Shown here: one piece after another, positions 15,659 to 22,833 of the stretch
Layout: the number at the start of each line of letters is the position of its first letter
Numbering within the stretch: the first letter of the stretch is position 1
Origin: a virus
Virus record (IMG/VR): IMGVR_UViG_3300029893_000504
Location: 1 to 42,740 of that record
Reading direction: 5' to 3' (one strand)
Length of the DNA stretch: 42,740 nucleotides
Position numbers and translations under genes: made by a program
The notes under the pieces: generated by a model
The model's database searches: none
The model's input: only the letters and a program-made list of their open reading frames with translations
What the model was told of the DNA's origin: nothing

Positions 15659-15694
15659 CGAAGGCCACGGAGCGATCCGTGGCCTTCGTCGTTT
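15659..15694 (+). terminator. hairpin terminator at the end of the early operon
   Basis: CGAAGGCCACGGA (15659-15671) and TCCGTGGCCTTCG (15676-15688) form a perfect 13-bp stem with a GCGA loop, followed by TCGTTT. The T-run is short, so termination may be partial. Confidence 0.72.
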
Positions 15695-15788
15695 CTGCCT
15701 TCGCGATCCGACCCGCCGAGCGCGATGGGTCCTTCCTGGCCGAAAAGCCATGCGGGGGGCGCGAGCGCGATGCTTTTCTAGCGTCAGA

Positions 15789-15895
15789 GTGCAAACCGGG
15801 GTTTGCACGGTTTGCGGTTTGCAGGCCCCATCCCTGGGGCCTGCCGCTTCGCGGCCAGCCTGCGGCTGTCCAAATCCGCTCCAGGCGGATTTGTG
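15789..15895. repeat. GGTTTGC cluster and four-hairpin element, copy 1
   Basis: GTGCAAACC-GG-GGTTTGCAC (15789-15808) is followed by two more direct GGTTTGC copies (15809, 15817). Then come four hairpins: GCAGGCCCCA-TCCC-TGGGGCCTGC (15821-15844), CCGC-TTC-GCGG, CAGCC-TGC-GGCTG, and CAAATCCGC-TCCAG-GCGGATTTG (15871-15893). The first and last hairpins are 26 nt apart. The same order, spacing and loop (TCCC) occur at 20787-20859 with compensatory stem changes. Confidence 0.8.
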
Positions 15896-15967
15896 CACTC
15901 CCCGATACACATCACGAGCCCGCCCACGGTTCTCCGTCGGCGGGCTTTCCATTTCGAGGTTCCGATC

Positions 15968-17389
15968 CTGAACACGCTCAACGTCGAGTACCGCAAGGTC
16001 GAGACGCTGATTCCCTACGCCCGCAATCCGCGCACGCACAGCGACGAGCAGGTCGCGCGCATCGCCGCCAGCATCGCCGAGTTCGGCTGGACCAACCCGA
16101 TCCTGGTCGATGGCGACCATGGTGTGATCGCCGGCCATGGCCGGCTGCTGGCCGCACGCAAGCTGGGGCTCGCCGAGGTGCCGGTGATCGAGCTTGCGCA
16201 CCTGACGCCTGCGCAGAAGCGCGCCTACGTGATCGCCGACAACCGGCTCGCGCTCGATGCCGGCTGGGACGAGGCGATGTTGGCGCTGGAGTTCGCCGAA
16301 CTGGCCGACGCCGGCTTCGATCTGGACCTGACCGGCTTCTCGGCCTCCGAGATCGAAGGCCTGCTCGATGCCATCGAGAAGACGGAACCGTCCGCCGAAG
16401 AGGACACGAGCGCTTTGGTCGGCGACCCGGACGAGGACGACGTCACACCGCCCGCGGTGGCGGTCACACGCCCCCGCGATCTGTGGCTGCTCGGTGAACA
16501 CCGGCTGCTGTGCGCCGACAGCCGCGACGCGGCCGCCGTCGCGCGCCTCATCAATGGCGAGCGCGCTCACCTGCTCTTTACCAGCCCGCCCTACGCGAAC
16601 CAGCGCGACTACACCACCGGCGGGATCACTGACTGGAACGCGCTCATGCAGGGCGTGTTCGGCGCCGCCCGCAGCGCGCTGCACGAGGACGCGCAAATCC
16701 TGGTCAACCTCGGCCTCGTCCATCGCGACGGCGAGTGGCAGCCGTACTGGGACGGCTGGATCGAATGGATGCGCACTCAGGGCTGGCGCCGCTTCGGCTG
16801 GTACGTCTGGGATCAGTCGGTGACCGTGCCCGGCGACTGGGCCGGGCGCCTCGCGCCGCGCCACGAGTTCGTGTTCCACTTCAACCGCCAGGCGCGCAAG
16901 CCGAACAAGATCGTGCCCTGCAAGTGGGCCGGTCACGAGACGCATCTGCGCGCCGATGGGTCATCCACCGCGATGCGCGCCAAGGATGGCAAGGTCGGCG
17001 AATGGAACCACGCCGGACAGCCCACGCAGGCGTTCCGCATCCCGGATTCCGTCGTCGAGGTGACGCGCCAGCGCGGCCGCATCGGTGATGGTATCGACCA
17101 TCCGGCCGTATTCCCGCTGGGCCTGCCGAAGTTCTTCATCGAGGCCTACACCGACGTGGGCGAGATCGTCTTCGAGCCGTTCTCCGGCGGCGGCACCACG
17201 CTGCTGGCCGGGCAACTCACCGACCGCAGGGTCCGCGCCATCGAGCTCGCGCCCGAGTACGTCGACGTCGCGCTGCGCCGCTGGCTGCAGCACCACCCGG
17301 GCATGGAGCCCGTGCTCGCGGCCACCGGCCAGCCCTTCGCCGAGGTCTCGGCCGAGCGCTTGGGCGAGACGGCGGAGGCGGCCGCGTGA
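15968..17389 (+). CDS. ParB-N domain fused to DNA methyltransferase (TSPPY type)
   Basis: About 473 residues from a CTG at 15968, which has GAGGT 7 nt upstream and gives the usual NTLNVEYRKVETLIPYARNP beginning; in-frame GTG 15893 and ATG 15803 lie in the hairpin region and are less likely. Residues 8-100 form a ParB nuclease-like domain (NPRTHSDEQVARIAASI, GHGRLLAA). The C-terminal part is a beta-class amino-methyltransferase with motif IV TSPPY near 204 and motif I FEPFSGGGTT near 400. SPPY often goes with N4-cytosine methylation. Probably modifies phage DNA against host restriction. Confidence 0.88.
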   Translation: MNTLNVEYRKVETLIPYARNPRTHSDEQVARIAASIAEFGWTNPILVDGDHGVIAGHGRLLAARKLGLAEVPVIELAHLTPAQKRAYVIADNRLALDAGWDEAMLALEFAELADAGFDLDLTGFSASEIEGLLDAIEKTEPSAEEDTSALVGDPDEDDVTPPAVAVTRPRDLWLLGEHRLLCADSRDAAAVARLINGERAHLLFTSPPYANQRDYTTGGITDWNALMQGVFGAARSALHEDAQILVNLGLVHRDGEWQPYWDGWIEWMRTQGWRRFGWYVWDQSVTVPGDWAGRLAPRHEFVFHFNRQARKPNKIVPCKWAGHETHLRADGSSTAMRAKDGKVGEWNHAGQPTQAFRIPDSVVEVTRQRGRIGDGIDHPAVFPLGLPKFFIEAYTDVGEIVFEPFSGGGTTLLAGQLTDRRVRAIELAPEYVDVALRRWLQHHPGMEPVLAATGQPFAEVSAERLGETAEAAA

Positions 17390-20216: not shown

Positions 20217-20255
20217 GGAATCCGAGCGGGACGGCGCCAATGCTTGATGGAGACC

Positions 20256-20786
20256 ATGGGACTGTCGATTCGCGCCTACGCCCGCCACCGTGGGGTGTCG
20301 GACACCGCCGTACACAAGGCCATTCGCGCCGGGCGCATCACGCCCGAGGCGGACGGCACCATCGACCCAGACCGGGCCGACCGCGACTGGACCCGGAACT
20401 CGGAGCCGCCGAAGGCGGGAACGGGCTCCCGGACCGTGAAGGTGCGGGTGGCGGAGGATCCGGCCCCCAACCTCGCCACCGGCCTGCCCGCTGGCGGCAC
20501 CACGCTCGTGCAGGCGCGCACGGTCAACGAGGTGGTCAAGGCGCAGACCAACAAGGTGCGGCTGGCCCGCCTCAAGGGCGAACTGGTCGATCGCCACCAG
20601 GCCATCGCGCATGTGTTCAAGCTCGCCCGTACGGAGCGCGACGCTTGGCTCAACTGGCCGGCGCGGATCTCGGCGCAGATGGCGGCCCGGCTCGGCGTGG
20701 AGGCCCACACCCTGCACGTGGCCCTGGATGCCGCCGTGCGCGAGCACCTCGCCGAGCTCGGGGAACTCAAGGTTCGGGTCGATTGA
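20256..20786 (+). CDS. terminase small subunit candidate (HTH protein)
   Basis: A 176-residue protein. The N-terminal HTH (LSIRAYARHRGVSDTAVHKA) is like the Nu1/small terminase DNA-recognition domain; the middle is a charged helical region (VKAQTNKVRLARLKGELVDR) and the C-terminus is helical. It lies directly before the large terminase gene. Start chosen at 20256 to give MGLSIRAYARHRG; ATG 20247 and TTG 20244 are in frame. It probably binds cos and recruits the large subunit. Confidence 0.82.
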   Translation: MGLSIRAYARHRGVSDTAVHKAIRAGRITPEADGTIDPDRADRDWTRNSEPPKAGTGSRTVKVRVAEDPAPNLATGLPAGGTTLVQARTVNEVVKAQTNKVRLARLKGELVDRHQAIAHVFKLARTERDAWLNWPARISAQMAARLGVEAHTLHVALDAAVREHLAELGELKVRVD

Positions 20787-20859
20787 TGAAACACGTCCCC
20801 GTGTTTCACCCTGACGGGCGCGCTGGCGCGCGTCCAAATTCGTTCCCGACGAATTTGTG
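20787..20859. repeat. four-hairpin element, copy 2 (before large terminase)
   Basis: TGAAACACG-TCCC-CGTGTTTCA (20787-20808), two GC-rich inner stems (CCC-TGAC-GGG and CGCGC-TG-GCGCG), and CAAATTCGT-TCCCG-ACGAATTTG (20835-20857). The gap between first and last hairpin is 26 nt as in copy 1. In the last hairpin both stem differences from copy 1 are compensated (two C-G pairs become T-A). The 3' end GTGATG holds the terminase start. Confidence 0.82.
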
Positions 20860-22833
20860 ATGGACGAGTTCGCCTATGAGGGCTGGGACGTCATCGAGCG
20901 CGCTTGGCGCGAGGGCCTCACGCCGGACCCGCTGCTCACCGTCTCCGAATGGGCCGACCGTCACCGGGTGCTGTCGAGCAAGGCCTCGAGCGAGCCGGGG
21001 CGCTGGCGCACCAGCCGCACGCCGTATCTGAAGGCGATCATGGACTGCCTGTCGCCGACCTCGCCCATCGAGCGCGTGGTGTTCATGAAGGGCGCGCAGG
21101 TGGGCGCGACCGAGACCGGCTCGAACTGGATCGGCTACGTGATCCACCACGCGCCGGGGCCGATGATGGCCGTGTGGCCCACCGTGGAGATGGCCAAGCG
21201 CAACTCCAAGCAGCGCATCGACCCGCTGATCGAGGAGTCGCCGGTGCTCTGCGAACTCATCGCTCCGGCGCGTTCGCGCGACTCGGGCAACACCATCCTC
21301 GCCAAGGAGTTTCGTGGCGGCGTGCTGGTGATGACCGGCGCGAACAGCGCGGTGGGCCTGCGCTCGATGCCGGTGCGCTATCTCTTTCTCGACGAGGTGG
21401 ACGCCTACCCGCTCGACGTCGAGGGGGAGGGCGATGCGATCTCGCTCGCTGAGGCGCGCACGCGCACCTTTGCGCGGCGCAAGATCTTCATCGTCTCGAC
21501 GCCGACGATCGCGGGCGCCTCGGCCATCGAGCGCGAGTACGAGGCCAGCGACCAGCGGCGCTACTTCGTGCCCTGCCCGCATTGCTCGCACCGGCAGTGG
21601 CTGCGTTTCGAGCAACTGCGTTGGGAGAAGGGACGGCCCGAGACGGCGGCGTATGTGTGCGAATCGTGCGAGACGGCGATCGCCGAGCACCACAAGACCT
21701 GGATGCTGGAGCACGGCGAGTGGCGCGCGACGGCGGAAGGCTCGGGCAAGACGGCGGGGTTTCATCTGTCGTCGCTGTACAGCCCGCTGGGCTGGCGCGC
21801 CTGGTGCGAGATCGCCGCTGCGTGGGAAGCCGCCGTCAGTAAAGAGTCGGGATCGGCCGCTGCCATCAAGACTTTCAAGAACACCGAGCTCGGCGAGACC
21901 TGGGTCGAGGAGGGCGAAGCGCCCGACTGGCAACGCCTGCTGGAGCGCCGCGAGGACTATGCCATCGGCACCATTCCCGCCGGCGGGCTCTTGCTCACCG
22001 CCGGCGCCGACGTGCAGAAGGACCGCATCGAGGTCTCGGTCTGGGCCTTCGGGCGCGGCAAGGAGGCCTGGCTCATCGAGCACCGGGTGCTGATGGGCGA
22101 CACCGCACGGGATGCGGTGTGGAAGGCGCTGGGCGGGATGCTCGCCGAGACCTGGACCCATGCCTCGGGCGCGGCCATGCCGCTGGCCCGCTTGGCGCTG
22201 GACACCGGCTTTGCGACACAGGAGGCCTACGCCTTCGTGCGCGCCTGCCGCGACGCGCGGGTGATGGCGGTCAAGGGCGTGCGGACGGGTTCGATGGGGG
22301 GCGCGGCCCTGATCGGCACACCGACGGCGGTCGATGTCTCGCAGGCGGGCAAGAAGCTGCGCCGGGGCATCAAGGTGTATGCGGTCGCGGTGGGGCTTGC
22401 CAAACTCGAGTTCTACAACCACCTGCGCCAGAGCGCGGAGGTGGCCGACGACGGCGTGACGGTGACCTACCCGGCCGGTTTCGTCCACCTGCCCAAGATC
22501 GACGCCGAGTTCATCCAGCAGCTCTGCGCCGAGCAACTGATCACCCGCCGCGACAGGAATGGTTTTCCGGTGCGCGAGTGGCAGAAGATGCGCGAGCGCA
22601 ACGAGGCGCTGGACTGCTACGTGTATGCCCGTGCTGCTGCTGCGGCCGCAGGGCTCGACCGCTTCGAGGAACGCCACTGGCGCGAACTGGAGCGGCAACT
22701 GGGGCTGGCCAGTCCGCCAGCCCTTGAAACACCTACTGAATCGATCACCGAGGCCACCCATCGAGGTGGCCTGGGTGTTTCTGGCAACCGCAACACCGGC
22801 CGGCGCGTGATCAAGAGCCGCTGGCTGTCCTGA
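20860..22833 (+). CDS. terminase large subunit, GpA family
   Basis: A 657-residue GpA-type terminase. The ATPase motor has KGAQVGATE at residues 77-85 (the GpA form of Walker A) and Walker B YLFLDEVDAYP near 173-183. Two CxxC pairs (CPHC near 238, CESC near 265) may bind zinc. The nuclease part starts with GADVQKDRIEVSVWAFG near 385. It cuts and pumps phage DNA into the prohead together with the small subunit. The start at 20860 follows GTG 20857, which is also in frame. Confidence 0.95.
   Translation: MDEFAYEGWDVIERAWREGLTPDPLLTVSEWADRHRVLSSKASSEPGRWRTSRTPYLKAIMDCLSPTSPIERVVFMKGAQVGATETGSNWIGYVIHHAPGPMMAVWPTVEMAKRNSKQRIDPLIEESPVLCELIAPARSRDSGNTILAKEFRGGVLVMTGANSAVGLRSMPVRYLFLDEVDAYPLDVEGEGDAISLAEARTRTFARRKIFIVSTPTIAGASAIEREYEASDQRRYFVPCPHCSHRQWLRFEQLRWEKGRPETAAYVCESCETAIAEHHKTWMLEHGEWRATAEGSGKTAGFHLSSLYSPLGWRAWCEIAAAWEAAVSKESGSAAAIKTFKNTELGETWVEEGEAPDWQRLLERREDYAIGTIPAGGLLLTAGADVQKDRIEVSVWAFGRGKEAWLIEHRVLMGDTARDAVWKALGGMLAETWTHASGAAMPLARLALDTGFATQEAYAFVRACRDARVMAVKGVRTGSMGGAALIGTPTAVDVSQAGKKLRRGIKVYAVAVGLAKLEFYNHLRQSAEVADDGVTVTYPAGFVHLPKIDAEFIQQLCAEQLITRRDRNGFPVREWQKMRERNEALDCYVYARAAAAAAGLDRFEERHWRELERQLGLASPPALETPTESITEATHRGGLGVSGNRNTGRRVIKSRWLS

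Follow-up and report, generated by a model that had tools for sequence, protein, structure and literature searches.

We found that two 74-nt sequences in a phage genome, each folding into a row of hairpins, are most probably insertions of a non-autonomous, gene-less mobile element of the REP/MITE kind that would be moved in trans by a putative enzyme, a reading to which we give a probability of about 0.78; the enzymatic step, taken by itself, is somewhat better than an even bet. This hairpin element is a dispersed mobile element and not a cis-regulator of the methyltransferase and large terminase (terL) genes that follow the two copies. Each phage copy is an addition to a pre-existing phage sequence, and the element belongs to a structure-conserved family dispersed in gamma-proteobacterial chromosomes, with a (G)GATT/TT motif on its 5′ side and mostly without target duplication.

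Bacterial intergenic DNA is full of short palindromic repeats, several classes of which have an elusive mobilising enzyme. In phages and in E. coli, the present family offers matched sites with and without the element (about 600 filled versus about 4,800 empty E. coli genomes); its target motif is defined and its ends are sharp, so that the movement of gene-less hairpins becomes directly testable. Furthermore, the distribution of the element points to phages ferrying gene-less hairpins between bacterial classes, and the family suggests a possible origin for the tyrT RtT repeats.

Two insertions in a phage genome

The DNA analysed here (the window) is a 42.7-kb virus record with gpNu1/gpA-type terminase genes, two ParB-like/DNA methyltransferase genes and a portal gene, and its closest named phage is AcaML1. 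It holds the following features.

15727..15820, plus strand: leader block, the insertion target of copy 1, with a promoter-like stretch and GTTTGC repeats
15821..15894, plus strand: 74-nt hairpin element, copy 1 (G...ATTTGT), which follows GCGGTTT within the methyltransferase leader (78.8 bits with covariance model R1)
15821..15844, plus strand: copy 1 hairpin 1, GCAGGCCCC-ATCCCT-GGGGCCTGC, loop TCCC (from sequence, fold and family covariation)
15843..15868, plus strand: copy 1 middle part, hairpins 2 (GCCGC-TTC-GCGGC) and 3 (CAGCC-TGC-GGCTG) (from the fold)
15871..15893, plus strand: copy 1 terminal hairpin, CAAATCCGC-TCCAG-GCGGATTTG (from the fold)
15968..17389, plus strand: ParB-like/DNA methyltransferase gene, 3′ of copy 1, start codon uncertain
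20244..20786, plus strand: terS, gpNu1-type terminase small subunit (phrog_57)
20785..20858, plus strand: 74-nt hairpin element, copy 2, exactly where the terS stop and the terL start overlap (73.6 bits with R1)
20787..20808, plus strand: copy 2 hairpin 1, TGAAACACG-TCCC-CGTGTTTCA (from sequence and fold)
20835..20857, plus strand: copy 2 terminal hairpin, CAAATTCGT-TCCCG-ACGAATTTG (from sequence and fold)
20860..22833, plus strand: terL, gpA-type terminase large subunit (PF05876/PF20454, phrog_15)

An earlier note on this DNA had placed two copies here, each with a TCCC-looped hairpin 1, 26 nt and a 9-bp hairpin flanked by GTC and TG, and we find both the placement and the fold as it described them. 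The two pairs of the final stem that differ as C-G versus T-A, changed on both sides, are real and can be read directly in the sequence. Its count of four hairpins per copy holds for copy 1, whereas the minimum-energy fold of copy 2 has three because the middle part pairs differently. Compared with shuffled sequences, the folding energies give z values of -3.8 (copy 1) and -3.7 (copy 2), with 0 and 1 of 200 shuffles folding as well. The loop of the terminal hairpin is a 5-nt TCCNG in both copies, and the closing pair of hairpin 1 in copy 2 is G-C in the window and A-T in other phages. After the two copies, the next match of R1 in the window scores 14 bits, and there is no third copy. No Rfam family, RtT RNA (RF00391) included, reaches its gathering threshold in the window.

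We collected 80 TerL relatives and compared the DNA 5′ of their terL genes. Nearly all of them have a terS stop that overlaps, or almost overlaps, the terL start, and the hairpin element is missing before terL in about 75 of 79. The copy 2 site is empty in L064, L065, L066 and L087, where it reads GTCGATTGATGGACGAG with the junction GTCGATTG|ATGGACG and almost identical flanks; it is filled in the window, L060, L085, L130 and L017, where flanks of that type surround the element. Likewise, the copy 1 site is empty (GTTTGCA|CCC) in relatives such as L065, L117 and L082, and in this empty form GGTTTGC(A/G)GTTTGCACCC leads directly to a terminator-like hairpin. At the same place the window, L060 and L023 have 74 extra nt, and in most relatives the methyltransferase leader is without the element. 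Occupancy is a mosaic: the window and L060 have both copies, L130, L048 and L017 have copy 2 alone, and L065 has neither. Because relatives have empty sites with near-identical flanks, each phage copy is an insertion that is present in few phages only. This direction of change is deduced from the empty sites, and precise loss may have occurred in some of the phages.

The boundaries of the copies are taken from the empty sites and can slide by 3 nt (copy 1) and 4 nt (copy 2), because GCA and GATG, respectively, are repeated at the ends. The insertion of copy 2 spares both the TGA stop of terS and the ATG start of terL, since GA are the first letters of the element and GATG is retained in the right flank. 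The insertions would be tolerated in the phage because that of copy 1 lies in leader DNA and that of copy 2 leaves the terS stop and the terL start intact.

The leader block 5′ of the methyltransferase gene is conserved among phage relatives whether or not they carry copy 1. After its promoter-like block stands a 6-mer in 3-5 copies, uniform within each phage and varying among phages (GTTTGC, GTTCGC, GTTACC). DUF6362 was considered as the reader of the GTTTGC repeats and rejected, as the type of 6-mer does not track the neighbouring DUF6362 protein. Terminator-like hairpins at 15659-15688 and 15919-15951 flank the leader containing copy 1, and the DUF6362 gene upstream of it has a weak antitermination-Q match; together, these suggest a late antitermination switch.

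A structure-conserved family in bacterial chromosomes

A pattern describing the terminal hairpin, CCAAATNCGNTCCNNNCGNATTTG, is expected by chance about 7 times in 257 Gb by our own estimate. Scanning bacterial genomes with it gave at least 133 copies in at least 120 loci, and nearly all of those listed are from Gammaproteobacteria. Their layout is near-universal: the 5′ part reads G-stem1-(A)TCCNT-stem1′, followed by a CCC..GGG hairpin and usually a third hairpin, and the 3′ end is CCAAATnCG-nTCCn-CGnATTTG-T in nearly all copies. The core of the terminal hairpin, CCAAATNCGNTCCN..CGNATTTG, is invariant throughout the family. The middle hairpins are variable in sequence and form hairpins in most rows of an alignment of 65 copies (A1).

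Two pairs of the terminal stem that the pattern leaves free are Watson-Crick in 95% and 98% of cases, versus 60% and 46% expected. A good stem encloses the ATCCNT loop in 56 of 72 cases, compared with 2/48 and 1/34 for two control motifs. In A1, we counted 245 double-change cells versus 74 in shuffles, and all slid registers collapse; the pairing percentage of hairpin 1 in this alignment is inflated, since rows were picked with hairpin 1 present. Despite this massive covariation of the stems, the TCC loops of both end hairpins stay fixed. The bacterial scan thus delivered more copies with further compensatory changes, which strongly bears out the proposal of the earlier note that selection acts on the folded structure.

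By covariance-model counts, the element reaches at least 52 copies in Methylocaldum 14B, at least 50 in Microbulbifer halophilus and at least 21 in strain 005FR1. One copy or more (E 1e-6 or better) is present in at least 65 of 185 genomes sampled from the class and in at least 35 of 200 from the phylum, and these carrier counts are lower bounds, as few candidates were scored per genome. A blastn search of INPHARED phages and PLSDB plasmids returned no copy, and in the open literature, as distinct from subscription papers, we found no description of the family.

The element folds over its whole length into consecutive hairpins. In the mechanism that we propose, a protein supplied in trans would recognise both end hairpins, with their TCC loops on the same strand, and move the folded strand. 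Compensatory changes would keep the hairpins recognisable while the stems drift. That TCC is kept in both end loops on one strand, with stems drifting, fits one protein recognising two folded ends.

Target sites and the means of movement

GATT adjoins 41 of 104 copies, versus 0-5 in control windows; TT adjoins 72 of the 104, and CGAAC follows immediately after 20. On the complementary strand, GGATT|CGAAC reads as a tRNA T-arm. A duplicate tRNA-Gln in L246 is interrupted at GGTTCGA^ATCC beside its intact sister, and taking the element out restores this tRNA-Gln as well as a tRNA-Ser in L319. At about 4517-4694 of L261, one tRNA-Gln copy has elements in both its anticodon loop and its T-loop, in opposite orientations. 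In Methylocaldum the element is found inside a CGTC...CCAG palindrome and in Microbulbifer inside a CCCTCTCCC...GGGAGAGGG palindrome. The E. coli site, GGGGATT|CACTCGC, lies in what we take to be an RSA-like repeat. Of 5,426 complete genomes, 603-604 have this site filled, and 4,758 contain its empty form. This copy (L420, 2007-2078) stands between rpnC and panC in ~11% of complete genomes, many of them O157:H7; in K-12 only 73 nt separate the two genes. Bacterial sites are therefore diverse, comprising tRNA loops, other palindromes, intergenic DNA and tandem arrays.

Insertion is clean and without target duplication in L420 and L246. A target-site duplication had been considered for the GATG and GCA repeats at the phage sites and was rejected: 3-4-nt direct repeats stand at the ends of both phage copies, most copies elsewhere are without them, and in 80 of 98 other copies the start of the element and its right flank have no base in common, as in shuffles with few exceptions.

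Several loci hold more than one element. L436 (300-735) is a tandem array of about six 72-bp units with exact end-to-start joints, and in L433, L434 and L443 clusters of 4 to 12 elements, in both orientations, occupy stretches of 4-20 kb in two genomes.

The main alternative to an enzyme-moved element is spread between palindromes without an enzyme, by hairpin-mediated replication errors or gene conversion. We consider it unlikely, even though many targets are palindromes (tRNA arms, REP-like and RSA-like repeats) and tandem arrays have exact joints. The boundaries are sharp and shared, there is a GATT target motif, and the phage sites had no pre-existing repeat of the palindrome kind. Moreover, inverted flanks are only a little commoner than in shuffled pairs (18% of flank pairs versus 9%), a weak excess on which we also rejected insertion into palindromes only as a rule.

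For an enzyme-moved element, an obvious candidate is a RAYT (TnpA-REP, a Y1 HUH transposase), which would place the element among the usual REPs of the GTAG type. The element is indeed short, palindromic, dispersed and structure-conserved, and Y1_Tnp genes are present in 14 of 16 carrier genomes. However, two carriers lack Y1_Tnp (G010 and G013) although they have 21 and 9 copies of the element, R1 has no match beside the Y1 genes in 30 Y1_Tnp loci, there is no GTAG tag, and clusters mix both orientations. By gene presence and neighbourhood, the genomic association of the element with Y1 genes is negative, and we regard a Y1/RAYT partner, and the reading as a whole, as improbable. A strand bias of the kind expected from lagging-strand transposition was also rejected, since both orientations occur in the same clusters.

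The rpnC gene beside the E. coli copy prompted us to consider Rpn (‘transposase_31’) proteins as a partner; these were rejected, with PF04754 in 3 of 20 carriers and PF12784 in 1. Inspection by eye of eight loci with lone terminal hairpins revealed nothing transposase-like that would indicate an autonomous or gene-bearing version. Across the Y1 loci, the Rpn families and these eight loci, we found no dedicated transposase for the element.

Two further readings assign the element a function in RNA, and both are very unlikely. The first is a cis-regulatory RNA leader (an attenuator, a translational switch or a protein-binding site) for the methyltransferase gene and terL. Both copies fold strongly directly 5′ of the two genes, and the terminal hairpin of copy 2 ends 2 nt before the terL ATG, where it might well reduce terL translation. 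Against this, the great majority of relatives lack the element at terL and most lack it at the methyltransferase leader, and the same family sits in bacterial tRNA loops, palindromes and tandem arrays. The earlier suggestion that the element is tied to the starts of these genes is therefore not borne out, the same places being empty in nearly all relatives. The second draws on CsrA-family proteins, which bind an ANGGAN hairpin motif: a mobile CsrA/RsmA-binding RNA whose minus-strand transcripts would titrate or recruit CsrA has in its favour that minus-strand hairpin 1 shows CANGGATG and the terminal hairpin an NGGA loop, near ANGGAN, and that no loop feature of the two end hairpins is better conserved than the minus-strand GGA, but crude ORF calling gives no fixed orientation relative to genes, late transcription reads both phage copies from the strand with UCC loops, and RtT, a possible relative, is without GGA loops.

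Relation to known repeats and carriage by phages

Transposition of IS200/IS605 elements proceeds through single strands, with end hairpins, a fixed left flank motif and no target duplication. The hairpin element likewise has hairpins at both ends, a fixed short 5′ motif (GATT or TT, at the frequencies given above) and no duplication. Its sharp T|G boundary, its GATT-type target and the missing duplication recall single-strand transposition of this type. Unlike IS200/IS605, its hairpins extend to the very ends, its orientations are mixed and two carriers are without a Y1 gene.

GTAG REPs and REPINs are also dispersed non-autonomous palindromes. GTAG is, however, not among the 12 commonest tetranucleotides beside the terminal hairpin of the element, and no RAYT gene among the 30 Y1_Tnp loci is flanked by it. 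With MITEs such as ERIC and NEMIS, the element shares being small, structured, non-autonomous and present in many genomes, but it has neither long terminal inverted repeats common to both ends nor a consistent target duplication.

CGTC-tagged REPs, which include dRS3 and RPE-4/6, are without a dedicated transposase, and some REPs sit inside palindromes; the first two stem positions of the CGTC-tagged family are complementary A-T, and its tail is CCA (Di Nocera et al. 2013, PMC3733652). Like the element, they are short high-copy palindromic repeats with 8-9-bp stems and 4-5-nt loops, and CGTC or TGTC precedes 77 of 129 terminal hairpins of the element (60%), with the remainder varying (the superfamily tag being CGTC, TGTC or CCTC). 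In contrast, the stem of the element begins with C-G and its tail is T[C/G], and the unit consists of 3-4 hairpins in fixed order, mostly 62-95 nt long, with TCC end loops. As it has no A-T stem start, no CCA tail and a multi-hairpin unit, we keep the element apart from CGTC-tagged REPs. Its presence inside a CGTC...CCAG palindrome in Methylocaldum further indicates that the element and the CGTC palindrome are separate things.

RtT RNA (Rfam RF00391, E. coli rttR, tyrT operon) is a 68-nt hairpin-rich insert in a tRNA 3′ repeat. In E. coli K-12 (L444, 1286400-1287800), the tyrT RtT repeats are tRNA-Tyr 3′ ends split at the T-loop by 68-nt inserts. The insertion point, GGTTCGA^ATCC, is that of the element in tRNA-Gln (L246) and tRNA-Ser (L319), not that of the phage copies, and RtT has a middle hairpin, CCCTTCGGG, that resembles one in the element. 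However, the terminal hairpins show no sequence relationship, R1 does not match RtT, and the alignment of RtT with the element is marginally above shuffles (3-9 of 200 as good). An RtT match lies near an element-bearing tRNA-Gln copy; over the L246 element itself the Rfam model scores no more than 17.5 bits (E 0.95). A distant relationship between E. coli RtT RNA and the element is possible. A broader proposal, possible and yet doubtful, is a superfamily of row-of-hairpin elements in Pseudomonadota that would target GATT in single-stranded hairpin loops (tRNA T and anticodon loops, other REPs) by means of a putative non-Y1 enzyme, would be borne by phages between orders and would be the source of RtT RNA.

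Prophages resembling the window are present in Methylocaldum and Tepidicella. A prophage segment of Methylocaldum 14B (L393) has copy 1 with the surroundings that it has in the window, and the one copy in the genome of Tepidicella xavieri (G020; L307), which we take to be a betaproteobacterium, is the phage terL copy. An exact-pattern scan of viral sequences returned mostly chance matches, which were filtered afterwards by stem pairing. Other copies lie on further viral contigs (L190, L415-L419). From this distribution over prophages of different bacteria and viral contigs, we infer that phages acquire the hairpin element and carry it across bacterial classes.
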